Shown piece by piece: positions 1,949-12,447 of a DNA stretch of 22,272 nt. The DNA is from a virus, in IMG/VR virus record IMGVR_UViG_3300025098_000317, positions 1-22,272 of that record, one strand, 5' to 3'. Positions within the stretch are counted from its first letter, which is position 1, and each line of letters begins with the position of its first letter. A program made the translations under genes and the position numbers. The notes below the pieces were generated by a model. It worked only from the letters and a program-made list of their open reading frames with translations. It was not told the origin of the DNA and did not search any database.

Positions 1949-2329
1949 ATGACCAAACTCACAAAGCCGAAGACTGACCTAATACTTGCCGGTATCTCAG
2001 ATGGGCATACCATCGTCGATGTTTGCGAGGGCATTGGCATCTCACGCACGGCCTTTTACAAGCGCATGAAGAACGACCCTGAGTTTGATGCAGCGGTAAA
2101 GCAGGCACAGCAGTACAGCGCTGAGAAGGCTCTGGAGGAGCTAGACCAAGTGTTTGACGATGCTCTTCACCGAAGGAAGGATTACGATACGGGGGTGCTG
2201 CGTGACTATGCCCACCATGTCCGGTGGAAGGCCAGCAAGATATTGCCGGAGCGGTTCGGTGATTCTAAGAATAGAGCTGGGGTAGAGATAGGCGATGGTA
2301 CTGTGAAGATATTGTGGGAAACTGACTGA
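1949..2329 (+). CDS. terS: Terminase small subunit (Sf6 gp1-like family)
   Basis: This 126-aa protein recognises phage DNA and hands it to the large terminase. Residues about 19-42 form a helix-turn-helix (TIVDVCEGIGISRTAFYKRM), followed by the DPEFDAAV stretch and a helical middle region for oligomer formation. Near the C terminus, HHVRWKASKILPERFGD matches the KW-x-A-x-K-x-LP-x-x-(Y/F)G signature of Sf6-type small terminases. The ribosome site before the ATG at 1949 is weak. Its stop overlaps the large terminase start (TGATG), which ties the two in translation. Length and position fit the family. Confidence 0.88.
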   Translation: MTKLTKPKTDLILAGISDGHTIVDVCEGIGISRTAFYKRMKNDPEFDAAVKQAQQYSAEKALEELDQVFDDALHRRKDYDTGVLRDYAHHVRWKASKILPERFGDSKNRAGVEIGDGTVKILWETD

Positions 2330-3615
2330 TGGAAGTTAAAATCCCGTACAAGCCTCGCCCGATACAGGCTGACATGCACAAAGAGCTGAAGCGCTGGAAT
2401 GTGCTGGTGATGCACAGACGCTTTGGAAAGACAGTCTGGGCTGTCAATCATATGATAAAGCGGGTGCTAACCAATCCGCTACCTCGTCCTCGCGTTGCTT
2501 TGATTGCTCCTACCTTTACGCAGGCAAAACGTATTGCTTGGGACTATGTGAAGTATTACGCCGGAGTGATACCGGGTACGACATTTAACGAGACTGAGCT
2601 GCGAGCCGACTTTCCTAATGGCGGAAGAATAACTTTATTGTCTGCCGAAAACCCCGATGCGCTGCGTGGTATTTATTTAGATGATTGTTTCTTTGACGAA
2701 TATGGCATGCAAAATCCTCGGGTATGGGGCGAGGTTGTGCGCCCGGCGCTGTCTGACAGACAGGGCTCGGCTACATTTCTGGGCACCCCGGCAGGCCATA
2801 ATCATTTTTATGATATGATGCAAAACGCTAAGCGTGAACTGGGCGAGGGTTCCGAAGATTGGTATTATAGGGTCTGTAAGGCGAGCGAAACAGAGATTGT
2901 AAAGCAAGAAGAGCTGGACGCTGCTCGCGCTTCCATGACGGAAGAACAGTATCAACAGGAATTTGAGTGTTCCTTTACTGCCGCTATTATCGGCGCATAC
3001 TACGCGAAGTTGATTGCGGATGCTGAAGATGCTGGAAAGATAACTAGAGTACCATATGACCCTTCGCTTCCAGTGCATACTGCGTGGGACTTGGGCATGA
3101 ACGACAGCACAGCTATTTGGTTTGCCCAGATATTTCGTGGAGGAGCAGTTAATGTCATTGATTATTATGAGAGCTCTGGAGTTGGGCTCGACCACTACGC
3201 CGAGGTATTACGGCAAAAGGAATACCATTATGGCGACCACCTTGCGCCGCATGATATTGAAGTGCGCGAGCTGGGTAGCGGTAAAAGCCGATTAGAAACA
3301 GCGTACAATTTAGGTATTCGATTCCGTGTTATTCCAAAAATGAAGATTGCGGATGGCATTAATGCGGCACGAATGATGTTGCCCAAGTGTTACTTTGATG
3401 ATGACAAGTGCGCTGTTGGGTTGGAATGTTTAAAACAATACAGGCAGGATTGGGATGACAAAAGACAAATTTTTAGAAATCACCCTAGACACGACTTTAC
3501 TAGCCACGCGGCTGATGCGTTTAGGTACCTCGCGGTTGGACTGCAAAATAGAGAAGCTGGAGTCAGAGCTCCGCAGTCGGTTGCAGAAAATTCGTACAAC
3601 CCCTTCGCGCTATGA
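2329..3615 (+). CDS. terL: Terminase large subunit
   Basis: This 428-aa protein is the ATP-driven packaging motor with a C-terminal nuclease that cuts concatemeric DNA. The Walker A-like loop HRRFGKT is at residues 29-35, the Walker B and catalytic acid FFDEYG at about 121-126 (Asp123, Glu124), and the coupling motif LGTPAG at 151-156. The RNase H-like nuclease domain follows, with Asp254 in AWDLGMNDS, Asp309 in APHDI, and Asp396 in HAADAFRYLAVGL. All key residues of both domains are present and the length is ordinary for short-tailed phages. It overlaps the small terminase upstream and the HlyC-like gene downstream by a few bases. Confidence 0.95.
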   Translation: MEVKIPYKPRPIQADMHKELKRWNVLVMHRRFGKTVWAVNHMIKRVLTNPLPRPRVALIAPTFTQAKRIAWDYVKYYAGVIPGTTFNETELRADFPNGGRITLLSAENPDALRGIYLDDCFFDEYGMQNPRVWGEVVRPALSDRQGSATFLGTPAGHNHFYDMMQNAKRELGEGSEDWYYRVCKASETEIVKQEELDAARASMTEEQYQQEFECSFTAAIIGAYYAKLIADAEDAGKITRVPYDPSLPVHTAWDLGMNDSTAIWFAQIFRGGAVNVIDYYESSGVGLDHYAEVLRQKEYHYGDHLAPHDIEVRELGSGKSRLETAYNLGIRFRVIPKMKIADGINAARMMLPKCYFDDDKCAVGLECLKQYRQDWDDKRQIFRNHPRHDFTSHAADAFRYLAVGLQNREAGVRAPQSVAENSYNPFAL

Positions 3616-4028
3616 CGATGAATAGTGCTAAAGGCTACATGGTAGCAACATACTTGTTGAAAAGAAGTCCGTACCATAAGTATTGGACTGACTGGGACTA
3701 CGAGCTTCTTATTGTTCCTCCTGTTGAGAACGAGACTTTTGTTTGCGACTTTAAAGATGGCTTGCCTTCTATGTTTGCGACATATGCCTTTCCTGATGAA
3801 GGGCATGTTGAGGAATATTTAGAGACTGGAAGGTTCCCGCCTGACGGCTTCTATGGCATAGGCAACACCCCCTGGATTATAGATTTCATATGTCTAGGGG
3901 GCAAACGTGACATTATTAGTGGTTTCAGGTATCTTAAAGACAAGTTTATTGACATGGGATATGATAACGCCCAGTGGTTAAGAACAACCAAACATAAGCG
4001 TGGTTGGCATAAGTTAAAAGGAGTCTGA
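3612..4028 (+). CDS. HlyC-like lysine acyltransferase homologue (RTX toxin-activating family)
   Basis: This 138-aa protein resembles toxin-activating lysine acyltransferases, which move a fatty acyl group from acyl-ACP to internal lysines. Against E. coli HlyC as I remember it, the region aligns without gaps and with a constant offset of one. SPYHKYW (19-25) matches SPLHRNW, so His22 matches catalytic His23; MFATYA matches AYCSWA; EYL matches KYL. GNTPWIIDF (84-92) matches GDRKWFIDW, so Asp91 matches catalytic Asp92. The C terminus is shorter than in HlyC (about 170 aa). The start overlaps the terL stop; no clear ribosome site is seen, and a second ATG is 6 bases on, so translational coupling is likely. 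No RTX toxin is in the window, so the substrate is unknown. The family call is likely; the activity is inferred. Confidence 0.75.
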   Translation: MTMNSAKGYMVATYLLKRSPYHKYWTDWDYELLIVPPVENETFVCDFKDGLPSMFATYAFPDEGHVEEYLETGRFPPDGFYGIGNTPWIIDFICLGGKRDIISGFRYLKDKFIDMGYDNAQWLRTTKHKRGWHKLKGV

Positions 4029-4029
4029 C

Positions 4030-4644
4030 ATGGGCGGCGGTGGCGGCGGCGGTGGCGGTGATGCGAATGACGGGTTCGCTGCACCAAAAGAAGCAGCTCA
4101 AAAAAGAGCTAGAGAAAATCAAGCTAGAATTGAGCGCGGCCTTAGTACCGCTGATGCTTATAGGCAAATAAGCGAAAGACGCGATGCTGCATCAGACGGT
4201 AGCATAAAAGTAGGCAGTGTAAGCATCCCGACAACGGCTGGTGTTGTTGGTGGAGCTATCTCTAAAATGAATTTAAACAACATTGAGAAAGTGCTGAAGG
4301 GTGGCGGCAAGGCTGTTTTCTCAAAGTCTGGTACTTTGATGGGCGCTGTTGATAAATCTGGAAGGTACACTGGAAGGCCAGAAGGCGACCCAAAAGGTGT
4401 GGGTACTACAGTGTTTGGGCAAATAGACCCGCGCTCTATACCTGACGACGAGAACGCTGCCCCTTTTGAAGGGCAACAACAAAAAACACCAGAAGAGGTT
4501 GCGGCGACAGCGGCTGCTGAAGAAGAAACTATTATGACTAGGGGCCGTAAAAGAACTCGCGGTAAAAGAGCGGGACAAGGCGGTACGTTGTTAGAAGGCT
4601 ACGGTTCTCTTTATAGAGGCGGGTCTGGTAAAGGAGTAAGTTAA
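4030..4644 (+). CDS. Hypothetical polyglycine N-terminal head-proximal protein (204 aa)
   Basis: ATG at 4030 has AGGAG 8 bases upstream. After Met come nine consecutive glycines, then a charged helical stretch (about residues 18-50), a mixed beta-like middle, an acidic Gln/Ala/Glu-rich segment (about 140-170), and a very basic tail, MTRGRKRTRGKRAGQGGTLL. Glycine-rich starts like this are seen in uncharacterised phage genes near the portal. Its tail resembles that of the next gene's product (RKRG ... TLLG). It lies between the terminase and portal genes and overlaps the next start (TAATG), so a role in head assembly or DNA packaging is likely from context, but no domain is recognised. Confidence 0.75.
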   Translation: MGGGGGGGGGDANDGFAAPKEAAQKRARENQARIERGLSTADAYRQISERRDAASDGSIKVGSVSIPTTAGVVGGAISKMNLNNIEKVLKGGGKAVFSKSGTLMGAVDKSGRYTGRPEGDPKGVGTTVFGQIDPRSIPDDENAAPFEGQQQKTPEEVAATAAAEEETIMTRGRKRTRGKRAGQGGTLLEGYGSLYRGGSGKGVS

Positions 4645-4853
4645 TGAGTGTTTTTCGCCCGAAGATTCCAATGCCTCCACCGGCTCCGCCAGCTCCACCT
4701 GCCGCAGACCCTGTTGATATGGAAAGAGCCGCTGCTTTATCTGAGGAGGCAACTGCCAAGTCTCGGCGTAAGCGCGGTTCAGGTTCTACAATCGTGGCAG
4801 GTGCGCTAGGAGATTCTGGCGTAACAACCGGCACACCGACATTATTGGGGTAA
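4644..4853 (+). CDS. Small proline-rich protein with RKRG...TLLG tail (69 aa)
   Basis: The ATG overlaps the upstream TAA, and AAAGGAG precedes it. The N-terminal third is a Pro/Ala run (about residues 8-22, PMPPPAPPAPPAA in part). A short acidic helix follows, then a basic Ser-rich turn and STIVAGALGDSGVTTGTPTLLG at the end. Short proteins with a 'R-R-G-x-STI-(L/V)-x-G ... TLLG' tail are common next to the portal in podoviruses and other tailed phages, and their function is not established as far as I know. It sits 2 bases before the portal gene. A head-to-portal accessory role is inferred from position. Confidence 0.75.
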   Translation: MSVFRPKIPMPPPAPPAPPAADPVDMERAAALSEEATAKSRRKRGSGSTIVAGALGDSGVTTGTPTLLG

Positions 4854-4855
4854 AC

Positions 4856-6445
4856 ATGAGTAACTTCACCAAATCGCTTATATCTCGCTTCGATTATATT
4901 AAGGGACGCAGAGATAACTGGGACACCCATTATCAAGAACTTGCGGATTATATGCTTCCCCGTAAGGCGGATATTGTTCGTAAGCGTTCTCGCGGCGAAA
5001 AGCGTATGGAGTTTATTTACGATGGGACTGCTTTACAAGCGGTAGACCTGTTATCAGCTTCTTTGCACGGCATGCTAACCAGCGGCTCAACGCCTTGGTT
5101 CCACCTGAACATGAAAGACGCAGACATTTCTCGTGATGACGACGTTCAGGAATGGCTAGAAGACTCCAGCAATAGAATGATACAGGCGTTTAACCAGTCT
5201 AACTTTGAGACTGAAGTGCATGAAATGTACGTTGACTTGGTTGTGTTCGGTACTGGCTGTATGTTTATTGAAATGGATGATGGTAATCTTCGCTTCAGTA
5301 CACGGCACATCTCTGAGTTTTACGTCCAAGAAAACCAGTTTGGCATTGTTGATACTGTCTTTAGAAAGTACAAGTCCCCGGTTAGGCAGGTCATTCAGCG
5401 TTTCGGAATTGACAACGTAAGCGATTACATTCGCAAGAAGTTTGAAGACAAGCCGGATGAAGAAATAGAAATCCTGCATGCTGTTCTTCCGCGTATTAAC
5501 CGTGACCCGAATAAGCGTGACAACAAGAACATGCCGTATGCGTCATTTTACATTGACGTTGAGTCAGGCATGCTACTGTCAGAGTCTGGGTTTGAAGAAC
5601 TCCCATACATTGTTCCGCGCTTCTTAAAAGCAACAGGCGAAGTGATGGGCAGAAGCCCTGCTATGTCTGCGTTGCCTGATGTTAAAATGCTTAACCTAAT
5701 GTCTAAGACAATTATTCAGGCAGCTCAGAAACAAATAGACCCACCCTTATTGGTTCCTGATGACGGTTTTATTATGCCGGTACGGACACAGCCCGGTGGC
5801 CTTAACTTTTATAGAGCAGGTACAAGAGATACAATCACACCATTGCAGGCAGGTGCTAACATTCCAATCGGTCTAAGCATGGAAGAACAACGGAGAGAAG
5901 CAATCCGCTCTACGTTCTATGTAGACCAGTTACTATCTGGCGGCGCTCCTAATATGACTGCTACGGAAGTTATCCAAAGGCAGGAAGAGCGCATGAGGGT
6001 GATTGGCCCTGTTCTAGGAAGATTGATGAATGAGATGCTTCGTCCGTTAATTGACAGAGTGTTTGGGCTTATGCTGCGTCAAGAGATGCTATCAATCCCG
6101 CCGGAAAGCTTGCAGGGCAGAGATATTGATATTGAATATGTATCACCTCTTGCCAGAGCGCAGAAGTCTACTTCACTTAATGGCACAATCAAAGCCCTTG
6201 AGGTTCTTCTTCCGCTTGCTCAATCATTCCCTGTTGGCGACCATATAGACCCTGATGGTCTTGTTCGTCATATTACTGAATCTCTCGGTGTTCCAAAGAC
6301 AACTCTTCGCTCACAAAGAGAAGTGGACGAGGCAAGGCAACAGAGGGCAGCGCAGGAACAGGAGATGGCAGAGCGTCAACAGACAACTGAAGACGTTGCA
6401 AATATAGCGCAAGGCGCACAAGCAGTAAGGATGTTAGGCGAGTAA
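4856..6445 (+). CDS. Portal (head-tail connector) protein
   Basis: This 529-aa protein matches the T7 gp8-type head-tail connector family, a 12-subunit ring at one capsid vertex through which DNA enters and leaves. Typical features are the N-terminal RRDNWDTHYQELADYMLPRK, the DGTALQAVDLLSASLHGMLTSG segment (about 57-78) containing the conserved S-x-L-x-G-x-L-T pattern, the TPWFHL motif, and the FLKATGEVMGRSPAMSALPD region (about 257-276). The wing and crown region with NMTATEVIQRQEERMRV follows, and the C terminus is Gln/Glu-rich and helical. The length is normal for the family (T7 gp8 is 536 aa). GGGG lies 6 bases before the ATG. The stop overlaps the next start. Confidence 0.93.
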   Translation: MSNFTKSLISRFDYIKGRRDNWDTHYQELADYMLPRKADIVRKRSRGEKRMEFIYDGTALQAVDLLSASLHGMLTSGSTPWFHLNMKDADISRDDDVQEWLEDSSNRMIQAFNQSNFETEVHEMYVDLVVFGTGCMFIEMDDGNLRFSTRHISEFYVQENQFGIVDTVFRKYKSPVRQVIQRFGIDNVSDYIRKKFEDKPDEEIEILHAVLPRINRDPNKRDNKNMPYASFYIDVESGMLLSESGFEELPYIVPRFLKATGEVMGRSPAMSALPDVKMLNLMSKTIIQAAQKQIDPPLLVPDDGFIMPVRTQPGGLNFYRAGTRDTITPLQAGANIPIGLSMEEQRREAIRSTFYVDQLLSGGAPNMTATEVIQRQEERMRVIGPVLGRLMNEMLRPLIDRVFGLMLRQEMLSIPPESLQGRDIDIEYVSPLARAQKSTSLNGTIKALEVLLPLAQSFPVGDHIDPDGLVRHITESLGVPKTTLRSQREVDEARQQRAAQEQEMAERQQTTEDVANIAQGAQAVRMLGE

Positions 6446-9611: not shown

Positions 9612-12020
9612 ATGGCAAGAGTTTCGACCATTGTTACCAACTTTAAGTCTGGTGAGCTATCGCCACGGCTGGAAGGTCGCATCGACTTAACAAAGTATAA
9701 CGAAGCTGCCCAGACAATATCTAATATGCTGGTGTATCCTTCGGGCGGCGCAACGCGCAGGCCCGGCACATACTTTGCTGGCAGAAGTAAAGATGGCGGC
9801 AAGGTTAAGCTTGTTAATTTTGAGTTTAGTGATGAGCAAGCATATATCCTCGAGTTTGGCGCAAACTATATCCGTTTTTTCAAAGACGGTGGAATACTGA
9901 CTGAAACAACTACTTCCATAACAGCAATAACCCAAGCAAGCCCCGCTGTCGTAACAGCCGCCGGGCATGGTTTTTCTAACGGAGATAGAGTTTTTATCTC
10001 AGGTGTTGCAGGAATGTCACAGTTAAATAACTTAGAGTTTACTGTTGCAAACCAGACAACCGATACTTTTGAGCTGACCGGCATAGATAGCAGCGGATAC
10101 AGCGCTTACACATCGGGCGGTGCGGTGGGAAGAATTGTTGAAGTAGCTACGACCTACAGCGTTACGGATATATTCGAAATAAACCATGCTCAGTCTGCTG
10201 ATGTTCTTTACATGGCGCACAAGGACCATGCACCAGCAAAGCTAACAAGAACGACGGCAACATCCTTTACCTTAGATGATATTGATTTTGTTGATGGCCC
10301 GTACCTTGATGAGAACATTACAGACACAACTATCTATGCTTCTTCTGATACAGGTAGCGTAACTATTACCGCTTCTGCTGATTTATTTACGAGCGGTGAC
10401 GTTGGCAGGCTAATTCGCCTGAGAGAAGTTCTGGAAATACATTATGATGTTTGGTCGGCAAACACTAGCTATAACAATAACTCTTTTGTTCGGTATGATG
10501 GTCATGTTTACAAGCAAGTTTCTGGCAGCACAGAAACGTCTAATAATACTCCACCTGTCCACGTTGAAGGCACAGAGACTTACGGAGACATAGACTGGCA
10601 ATACAGACACGACGATACAGGTTACGCAGAGATAACAGCTTTTACTAACGCGACTACTGTAACAGCTACTGTTAAGGAAGATGATGGCGGTATCAGTGTG
10701 TTGCCACACAACACGATTGGTTCAGGAAACGCGACAAAGAAGTGGTCACTAGGAGCCTTCGGCGGCGACCAAGGATTCCCAAGGGCTGTGGCATTTTACG
10801 AACAGCGTTTGTACTTTGCTGGCACAACAGGGCAACCGCAAACAATATTTGGTTCTGTTTCTGCTGACTTTGAGAACCACACGCCGGGCACAGAAGACGA
10901 CGCAGGCGTAAACATTACTATTGCTTCTGACCAAGTAAACGTAATCAAACACTTACTGCCGGGCCGGTTCTTGCAGATACTGACAACTAGCGCAGAGTTC
11001 ACCTTATCTGGTGGTACTGGTGCCACGCCTGTCACACCGACTAACGTAAATGTGCTCCGTGAAACCACATTTGGTACATCTCAGGTGCGGCCTCTTCGTG
11101 CAGGTAACTCAACCATTCTTATTCAAAAAGGTCAGGAGAAAGTTAAAGAGATTACCTTTGACTTAGACACCGATGGGTTGCTTGGTATTGATTTAACTAT
11201 TCTAGCTGACCACATACCACGCGGCGGATTAAGTGACATGATATGGCAACAAGAGCCAGAGCTTGTTATCTGGTTTGTACGCAATGATGGAGAGCTTGTT
11301 GGCCTAACTTATGACAGAGCAAACGCAGCTATAGGCTGGCATACTCACAACATTGGTGGAAACGGCTTTGTAGAAAGTGTCTCTGCAATCCCAAGCGGGG
11401 CAGAAGACCAAGTATATGTTTCTGTAAAACGCACAATAAACGGGGCCACTGTCAGGCATATCGAGTACCTGAAAACAATAGACTTTGGAAGCAACACAGA
11501 AGATGCGTTTTTTGTTGATAGCGGCTTAACATATAGTGGCTCAGCTACAACGACCATCAGCGGTCTAAATCATTTAGAAGGTGAAGAGGTAAACATACTT
11601 GCTGATGGCGCAACGCACCCAAACAAAACAGTTACTGATGGCGAAGTTACGCTAGAGAGAAGCGCAAGCAAAGTTCACATTGGGTTTGGTTACACATCTT
11701 TATTAGAGACATTACGCTTAGAAGCAGGGGCTGACGATGGCATCTCTCAAGGAAAGATAAAAAGAATACATGGTGTGACTGTAAGGTTCTTAGAAACTGT
11801 TGGTGCTGAAGTAGGCCCGAACATTAGTAACTTGGACAGAATACCATTCAGAGACAGTAGTATGAGCATGGATGAAGCGGTCCCTAGTTTTTCTGGTGAT
11901 AAGGAAGTGTTCTTTCCTTCCGGGTATGACAATGACGCCAGAGTTGTAGTTAGGCAAACACAGCCTTTACCTATGACTATTACGGCTATTATACGGAGGT
12001 CTAATACATTTGACGTATAA
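9612..12020 (+). CDS. Tail tubular protein B / nozzle (T7 gp12-like)
   Basis: This 802-aa protein forms the distal tail nozzle that gates DNA exit. The N terminus FKSGELSPRLEGRIDLTKY, with SGGATRRPGTYF (44-55), is the hallmark of gp12-like nozzle proteins. Two inserted beta-modules are visible. Residues about 103-172 (GHGFSNGDRVFISGVAGM ... ELTGIDSSGYSAYTSGG) form the FCCH-like module often found in phage tail proteins. Residues about 281-331 (from WSANTSYNNNSFVRY to a DWQY strand) resemble a small carbohydrate-binding module. Length is close to T7 gp12 (794 aa). It overlaps the next start by 11 bases. Confidence 0.92.
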   Translation: MARVSTIVTNFKSGELSPRLEGRIDLTKYNEAAQTISNMLVYPSGGATRRPGTYFAGRSKDGGKVKLVNFEFSDEQAYILEFGANYIRFFKDGGILTETTTSITAITQASPAVVTAAGHGFSNGDRVFISGVAGMSQLNNLEFTVANQTTDTFELTGIDSSGYSAYTSGGAVGRIVEVATTYSVTDIFEINHAQSADVLYMAHKDHAPAKLTRTTATSFTLDDIDFVDGPYLDENITDTTIYASSDTGSVTITASADLFTSGDVGRLIRLREVLEIHYDVWSANTSYNNNSFVRYDGHVYKQVSGSTETSNNTPPVHVEGTETYGDIDWQYRHDDTGYAEITAFTNATTVTATVKEDDGGISVLPHNTIGSGNATKKWSLGAFGGDQGFPRAVAFYEQRLYFAGTTGQPQTIFGSVSADFENHTPGTEDDAGVNITIASDQVNVIKHLLPGRFLQILTTSAEFTLSGGTGATPVTPTNVNVLRETTFGTSQVRPLRAGNSTILIQKGQEKVKEITFDLDTDGLLGIDLTILADHIPRGGLSDMIWQQEPELVIWFVRNDGELVGLTYDRANAAIGWHTHNIGGNGFVESVSAIPSGAEDQVYVSVKRTINGATVRHIEYLKTIDFGSNTEDAFFVDSGLTYSGSATTTISGLNHLEGEEVNILADGATHPNKTVTDGEVTLERSASKVHIGFGYTSLLETLRLEAGADDGISQGKIKRIHGVTVRFLETVGAEVGPNISNLDRIPFRDSSMSMDEAVPSFSGDKEVFFPSGYDNDARVVVRQTQPLPMTITAIIRRSNTFDV

Positions 12021-12447
12021 GTTAGTGCCTCTTGATGAAGAGCATGTTTGGCTAATTGAAACAGACTACGACTTTCCTTTATCTGCAAGGCAGATGTTCG
12101 CCAACCATGAAAGCGTATTTGGTCTTAGTTTGTTTTTGGATGACGAGTTACTTGCTTGTGCAGGATGCCATGTTTTGTGGGAAGGCGTAGCTGAAGGTTG
12201 GATAATCATGGCAAAGAATGGCTACGGTTCTCCTAAAACAGTTGCTAGATATACAGGAAAGCTGTTTGAGACTATAATGAACGACAATGACTTATGGCGG
12301 ATGCAAGCCAGTGTATCCGTGAATGACACTAGAGCTTTACGGTTTGCTGACTGGCTAGGTTTTAAGGATGAAGGACTTATGGAAAAGTTTGGACCAGATG
12401 GCGGCGATTATCGCAGATTGGCGAGGTTAAGATGCCAGAACCAATAA
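12010..12447 (+). CDS. T7 gp13-like GNAT-fold protein
   Basis: This 145-aa protein starts at TTG (12010), with GGAGG at 11995-11999 inside the end of the nozzle gene. It has the outline of a GNAT acyltransferase: LSLFLDDELLACAGCHVLWEGVAEGWIIM gives two central strands, and MQASVSVNDTRALRFADWLGFKDEGLMEKF is the classic C-terminal N-x-x-A-x-(R/K)-(F/W)-x-x-x-LGF-x-x-EG signature. T7 gp13, in the same place in its operon, has this fold and is needed for correct virion assembly, with no proven enzyme activity. Whether this one binds acetyl-CoA cannot be told. It overlaps the following gene by 16 bases. Confidence 0.85.
   Translation: MTYKLVPLDEEHVWLIETDYDFPLSARQMFANHESVFGLSLFLDDELLACAGCHVLWEGVAEGWIIMAKNGYGSPKTVARYTGKLFETIMNDNDLWRMQASVSVNDTRALRFADWLGFKDEGLMEKFGPDGGDYRRLARLRCQNQ

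Follow-up and report, generated by a model that had tools for sequence, protein, structure and literature searches.

The window analysed here, an IMG/VR virus record of 22,272 bases, carries a gene for a HlyC-like protein within a phage structural region. The gene order is terL, hlyC-like gene, X204, P69 and portal, with the following features:

1949..2329, plus strand: terminase small subunit (Pfam Sf6_terminase, 1.4e-9)
2329..3615, plus strand: terminase large subunit (TerL), 56% identical to TerL of Pelagibacter phage HTVC034P
3612..4028, plus strand: HlyC-like acyltransferase (P0001), 138 aa; PF02794 1.4e-7, ApxC by sequence and by fold
3666..3677, plus strand: codons of Ser19-Pro-Tyr-His22, equivalent to HlyC Ser20/His23; His in 30/31 clusters, Ser19 and His22 nearly invariant
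3882..3884, plus strand: codon of Asp91, equivalent to HlyC Asp92; invariant in 31 clusters
4030..4644, plus strand: X204, variable low-complexity protein starting MGGGGGGGGG, the proposed substrate; its gene follows the hlyC-like gene in related loci
4030..4038, plus strand: Met1-Gly2-Gly3 of X204, the proposed acceptor end after Met removal
4531..4617, plus strand: conserved basic C-terminal motif of X204 (RGRKRTRGKRAGQGGTLLEGYGSLYRGG), common to many X204
4644..4853, plus strand: P69, small Pro-rich protein before the portal (phrog_831, 7e-7)
4856..6445, plus strand: portal, head-to-tail connecting protein (PF12236, 1e-152)

The enzyme gene starts with ATG and overlaps the TerL stop codon as ATGA. 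Downstream, the portal is accompanied by a scaffold-like protein, the major head protein and an internal virion protein, an arrangement as in T7-like podophages. The initial annotation had placed the gene in a packaging operon, and this linkage was confirmed, since the enzyme adjoins TerL and its neighbours are phage structural genes. TerL of the window shows 56% identity to the HTVC010P group of Pelagibacter phages. In isolates of this group, the interval between TerL and portal holds small ORFs only, and a search of their genomes for a HlyC match gave none; the same search of T7 was also negative. P69 occurs also in relatives without the enzyme. A six-frame scan of the window revealed a single, isolated RTX-like nonapeptide, which lies within the scaffold gene. 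An RTX toxin was therefore rejected, as the initial annotation had stated.

Some further observations concern the window and its closest relatives. A second GNAT-like protein is encoded between the tail tubular B and gp14-like genes (12010-12447); it matches phrog_308 (internal virion protein) and, weakly, phrog_4470 (acyl-CoA N-acyltransferase). On the minus strand, positions 994-1551 encode a protein of 185 aa whose GPNCGVTALA motif is similar to the active site of cysteine peptidases; a Pfam match was not obtained for it. The related contig L003/L012 (IMGVR_UViG_3300048104_000450) has a TerL gene with an in-frame stop that is otherwise 98% identical to that of the window; its X204 also appears shortened, which may reflect error or decay. 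Two contigs (L126, L363) contain an 89-aa ORF (MSKTIMAR...) between TerL and the HlyC-like gene.

Family, fold and catalytic residues of the enzyme

In the Pfam search, the window enzyme matched PF02794 (HlyC) with an E-value of 1.4e-7 and 31.9 bits (cut-off 25), and no other family. The PHROG match was to PHROG 20210, a group of unknown function, and the sole match of a PDB sequence search was ApxC (4WHN, E 5e-4). An AlphaFold2 model calculated with 31 relatives as input reached a pLDDT of 91.7. When it was submitted to Foldseek, three ApxC chains ranked first (E 7e-9 to 1e-7, TM 0.74-0.75; best single match 4WHN, E 7e-9, TM 0.75), followed by GNAT acetyltransferases. Membership in the HlyC family PF02794 is thus confirmed, and the predicted structure is an ApxC-like GNAT fold. 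The HlyC-like identity of the product, originally proposed from a comparison with E. coli HlyC, has thereby withstood two of the checks suggested at that time, the profile search against the HlyC family and the comparison of a predicted structure with ApxC.

His22 and Asp91 align to the catalytic positions of ApxC, with a spacing of 69 residues in both proteins. The alignment contains one compensating gap pair between the two motifs; hence the earlier description of a match to HlyC "without gaps" was slightly too strong, while the His-Asp spacing was correct. In HlyC, the reaction proceeds through an acyl-His23 intermediate with acyl-ACP as donor, and roles for both His23 and Ser20 have been described (PMC8339906). 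Scans of IMG/VR with TerL and the enzyme yielded more than 100 loci in which the enzyme gene is placed as in the window. After clustering at 80% identity, 31 clusters of the window type were obtained; they share about 33-54% identity with the window protein, and Ser, His and Asp are kept across them. The equivalent of His22 is present in 30 and that of Asp91 in all 31 clusters of these terL-linked relatives. PF02794 was matched by 11/11 relatives tested and by 30/31 cluster representatives. The claim of an intact catalytic pair therefore holds for the window, where Ser19, His22 and Asp91 correspond to the HlyC catalytic residues, and also for its terL-linked homologues, whose inspection had been recommended. 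A tblastn search with the window protein against a collection of isolated phages (50,697 phage records) gave no relatives, even at an E-value of 10, and an alignment-based scan of bacterial genomes did not confirm any relative of the enzyme.

The window enzyme shares with HlyC and ApxC (toxin-activating acyltransferases, TAAT, PF02794) the sequence profile, the GNAT-like fold and the Ser-His-Asp residues. It also shares the position directly upstream of the substrate gene, here a proposed one, comparable to hlyC before hlyA. By contrast, it has only 138 aa and belongs to a phage morphogenesis operon in which genes for an RTX toxin or for type I secretion are absent, and the protein type encoded downstream starts with MG[G/S] and can be free of lysine. 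The functional class of RTX toxin activation goes along with a linked RTX protoxin, which is absent from the window, and the enzyme is not placed in this class.

X204 and its association with the enzyme

X204 was found directly 3' of the HlyC-like gene in roughly 80 loci examined. The length of the protein ranges between 97 and 429 aa; it is rich in Gly, Pro or Lys, has a variable middle part and is probably disordered. Its starts are of the MGGGG or MGSGGG type, and MG[GSA] is present in 52 of 53 distinct members; the exception, MAAVYRP, was found in two enzyme-positive contigs. X204 did not give any Pfam match. Judging from position and composition, it is probably a virion protein. Six loci (L019, L131, L361, L367, L378, L381) encode two consecutive MG[G/S/A] proteins downstream of the HlyC-like gene; the additional protein has 70-101 aa and a basic C-terminus.

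X204 resembles gp7.3 of T7 (PF11653) in being encoded upstream of the portal, in its MG start and basic C-terminus and, in its short forms, also in a Lys-rich N-terminus. Homology of the two proteins was rejected, as there was no Pfam match and the best BLAST E-value of 0.05 is not significant. T7 gp7.3 is anchored by its C-terminus at the adaptor-nozzle junction while its N-terminus is disordered in the tail channel; infection leads to its ejection, and phage particles lacking gp7.3 are unable to adsorb (PMC11784390). By analogy with gp7.3, the basic C-terminal motif of X204 is perhaps a tail anchor.

To count X204, a motif-free definition was applied, namely an MG[GSA] gene encoding 85 aa or more within the interval between TerL and portal, and contigs with distinct TerL were considered (75 with and 28 without the enzyme). 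A PE-V-TPE motif was rejected as a label of presence, because it missed true X204. An MG[GSA] gene occupied the slot in 73/75 enzyme-positive but only in 9/28 enzyme-negative contigs. L013-L018, close relatives of the window with a TerL identity of about 90%, contain neither the enzyme nor X204. The presence of the enzyme changes about nine times on the TerL tree. Among six independent, well-supported pairs, a mean of 5.2 changed in the same direction and none in the opposite one (sign test p 0.03-0.38, median 0.06). Enzyme and MG[GSA] gene thus co-vary on the TerL tree, at a level that is suggestive, not decisive. The idea put forward initially, acylation of a phage structural or ejection protein, has gained support in so far as the enzyme precedes a probable virion protein and both are gained and lost together.

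Three of the nine enzyme-negative exceptions have a GNAT acetyltransferase in the enzyme slot, and the other six form one clade. In the former (L386:2666-3133, L387:5250-5717 and L389:2731-3198), the GNAT gene (PF00583) is followed by that of an MGGFCSGP or MGGACAAV protein, as though another acyltransferase had taken over the task. The clade (L321, L324, L343, L348, L369, L370) keeps an MGG X204, and no HlyC match was found in its six contigs, one of which has 31.7 kb. HTVC010P-type phages without the enzyme also possess small MGG or MGS proteins. The background of MG[GSA] starts among annotated CDS, HlyC-linked ones set aside, is about 5/153. MG alone was rejected as a signature, since tail-tip proteins of enzyme-negative phages, T7 gp7.3 and P69 also start in this way. 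In the same slot, Rhodoferax phage P26218 encodes gp40, which looks GNAT-like by eye but has no Pfam match and was not counted.

A second branch of HlyC-like proteins in phages

Whether phage members of the family had been described was a question left by the initial annotation. They are known, by annotation only, in Pelagibacter phages, where genes are designated "toxin-activating lysine-acyltransferase" (HTVC115P gp46, HTVC103P gp34, HTVC104P gp36, HTVC026P gp47, HTVC111P gp50, HTVC112P gp46); our literature search did not reveal any paper describing phage HlyC-like members. These genes have in common with that of the window the Pfam family, the occurrence in marine phages and, mostly, a position beside structural genes. 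They differ in that the catalytic His is replaced by Tyr or Trp, the operon position is another one and the similarity is only distant. This second branch, which includes freshwater phages, scores higher against PF02794 (47-62 bits in the Pelagibacter phages) than the window protein, and ApxC is the best fold match of its model too, but the catalytic His is changed to Tyr, Trp or Phe. Among the His-less members (L141, L143-L147, L148-L227), many have another His two residues before Asp (WHID), so that catalytic function was perhaps either re-established or given up.

The second-branch enzyme precedes proteins of families other than X204. These are tail-tip proteins (HTVC026P gp48, HTVC111P gp51, HTVC112P gp47) or members of the HTVC115P gp45 family; they start with MGG, MGS or MGA, and in many of them basic or hydrophobic residues come next. 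In HTVC103P and HTVC104P the enzyme gene is displaced, and the gp45 homologue located elsewhere still starts with MGSVFKR. Tail-tip proteins were counted in a scan made irrespective of the enzyme, pooled with enzyme-selected loci. MG[GSA] was present in 60/64 proteins with the enzyme upstream versus 0/50 without it, the latter mostly having F, L, W or I after MG. This contrast is partly phylogenetic and its numbers overstate the independent evidence, because the enzyme state changes only about four times on the tail-tip tree, twice on strong branches, and other alignment columns separate the two groups as cleanly. In a large freshwater clade (L391-L470), His-less HlyC-like genes (His to Tyr) precede tail-tip proteins that have hydrophobic N-termini (MGFDPIT.., MIDLFNS..) and lack MG[GSA]; the starts are MGF (49), MID/MIN/MTN (19), MGL and others. 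This clade is the chief exception to the MG[GSA] start. MG[GSA] is therefore not universal, and the assumption that a small residue 3 tracks the enzyme everywhere was rejected. In Phage DSL-LC06 (L235:1387-1872), the gene next to and upstream of that for the tail-tip (baseplate hub) protein encodes a GNAT enzyme, a position held in pelagiphages by the HlyC-like gene; the hub protein starts with MSKVLGK.

Proposed acylation of X204

On balance, we infer that the window gene probably encodes an active HlyC-type fatty-acyltransferase that lipidates the adjacent X204, a putative tail-channel or ejected virion protein, with Gly2 as the favoured site. Removal of Met by methionine aminopeptidase would expose Gly2 of X204, and the acyl chain would be taken from acyl-ACP via His22, probably as in HlyC. 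The chain would be placed on the alpha-amine of Gly2, an epsilon-lysine being the alternative. With a fatty acid on its free end, X204, which probably lies in the tail channel or is ejected like T7 gp7.3, could more readily insert into the host membrane when the phage adsorbs or ejects its DNA.

An internal lysine in the basic C-terminal patches of X204 or P69 could be acylated instead by the chemistry known from HlyC, which we consider unlikely. It is true that His22, Ser19 and Asp91 are conserved as in the lysine-specific HlyC, and that lysines occur in the basic patch of most X204 and of all P69 seen with the enzyme. However, X204 of two contigs (L090, which is the same contig as L339, and L094) is devoid of lysine, and the enzymes beside them keep His and Asp; five further X204 carry a single lysine. 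Nor was a gained lysine column detected in the tail-tip proteins of enzyme-positive phages. The feature shared by the downstream proteins is Gly2 followed by a small residue 3, i.e. MG[G/S/A]. Because of this common start and the X204 proteins without lysine, the N-terminal glycine is favoured. The family assignment behind the term "lysine acyltransferase" in the initial annotation stands, whereas the Lys-free X204 make lysine doubtful as a general acceptor. A review notes that human NMT, an N-terminal Gly myristoyltransferase, acylates lysine as well (PMC8339906). Acceptance of both amines by one enzyme makes a change from lysine to N-terminal glycine chemically plausible.

A non-catalytic role of the HlyC fold, as chaperone or assembly partner for the protein encoded downstream, is rather improbable. 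This idea would fit the pelagiphage and freshwater branch, in which the genomic link is kept without the catalytic His, but not the window branch with its Ser, His and Asp retained across such divergent clusters. Equally hard to favour, and quite improbable in our opinion, is a host protein or lipid as target, where the adjacency of X204 would merely reflect a shared expression slot. The displaced copies in HTVC103P and HTVC104P do sit among early-type genes. On the other hand, the order of hlyC-like gene and X204 is strict, the enzyme is gained and lost together with the MG[GSA] gene, and the neighbourhood is of the late structural type.

If the favoured lipidation of X204 at Gly2 is right, the enzyme would resemble NMT in acylating an N-terminal Gly that is followed by a small residue and often by basic ones. 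It would differ from it as a single short GNAT-like domain whose donor is presumably acyl-ACP; NMT was absent from the best 50 Foldseek matches listed for the window enzyme, and there was no NMT Pfam match. To our knowledge, the intact terL-linked branch, the X204 cassette and the N-terminal signature are new. We know of no phage virion protein that is lipidated by a phage-encoded acyltransferase, and a literature search for a description of such a protein gave none. It is conceivable, though still a tentative generalization, that phage HlyC-family enzymes are N-terminal glycine fatty-acyltransferases and attach a lipid to ejection and tail-tip proteins with MG[G/S/A] starts, so that these can enter the host envelope. 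The system offers a sharp test, as there is one enzyme, one adjacent candidate substrate and one predicted site. If lipidation proved true, it would provide short-tailed and other phages with a way to seat ejected proteins in the host envelope. It would also extend HlyC-type enzymes beyond toxins and represent a prokaryotic-virus counterpart of N-myristoylation.
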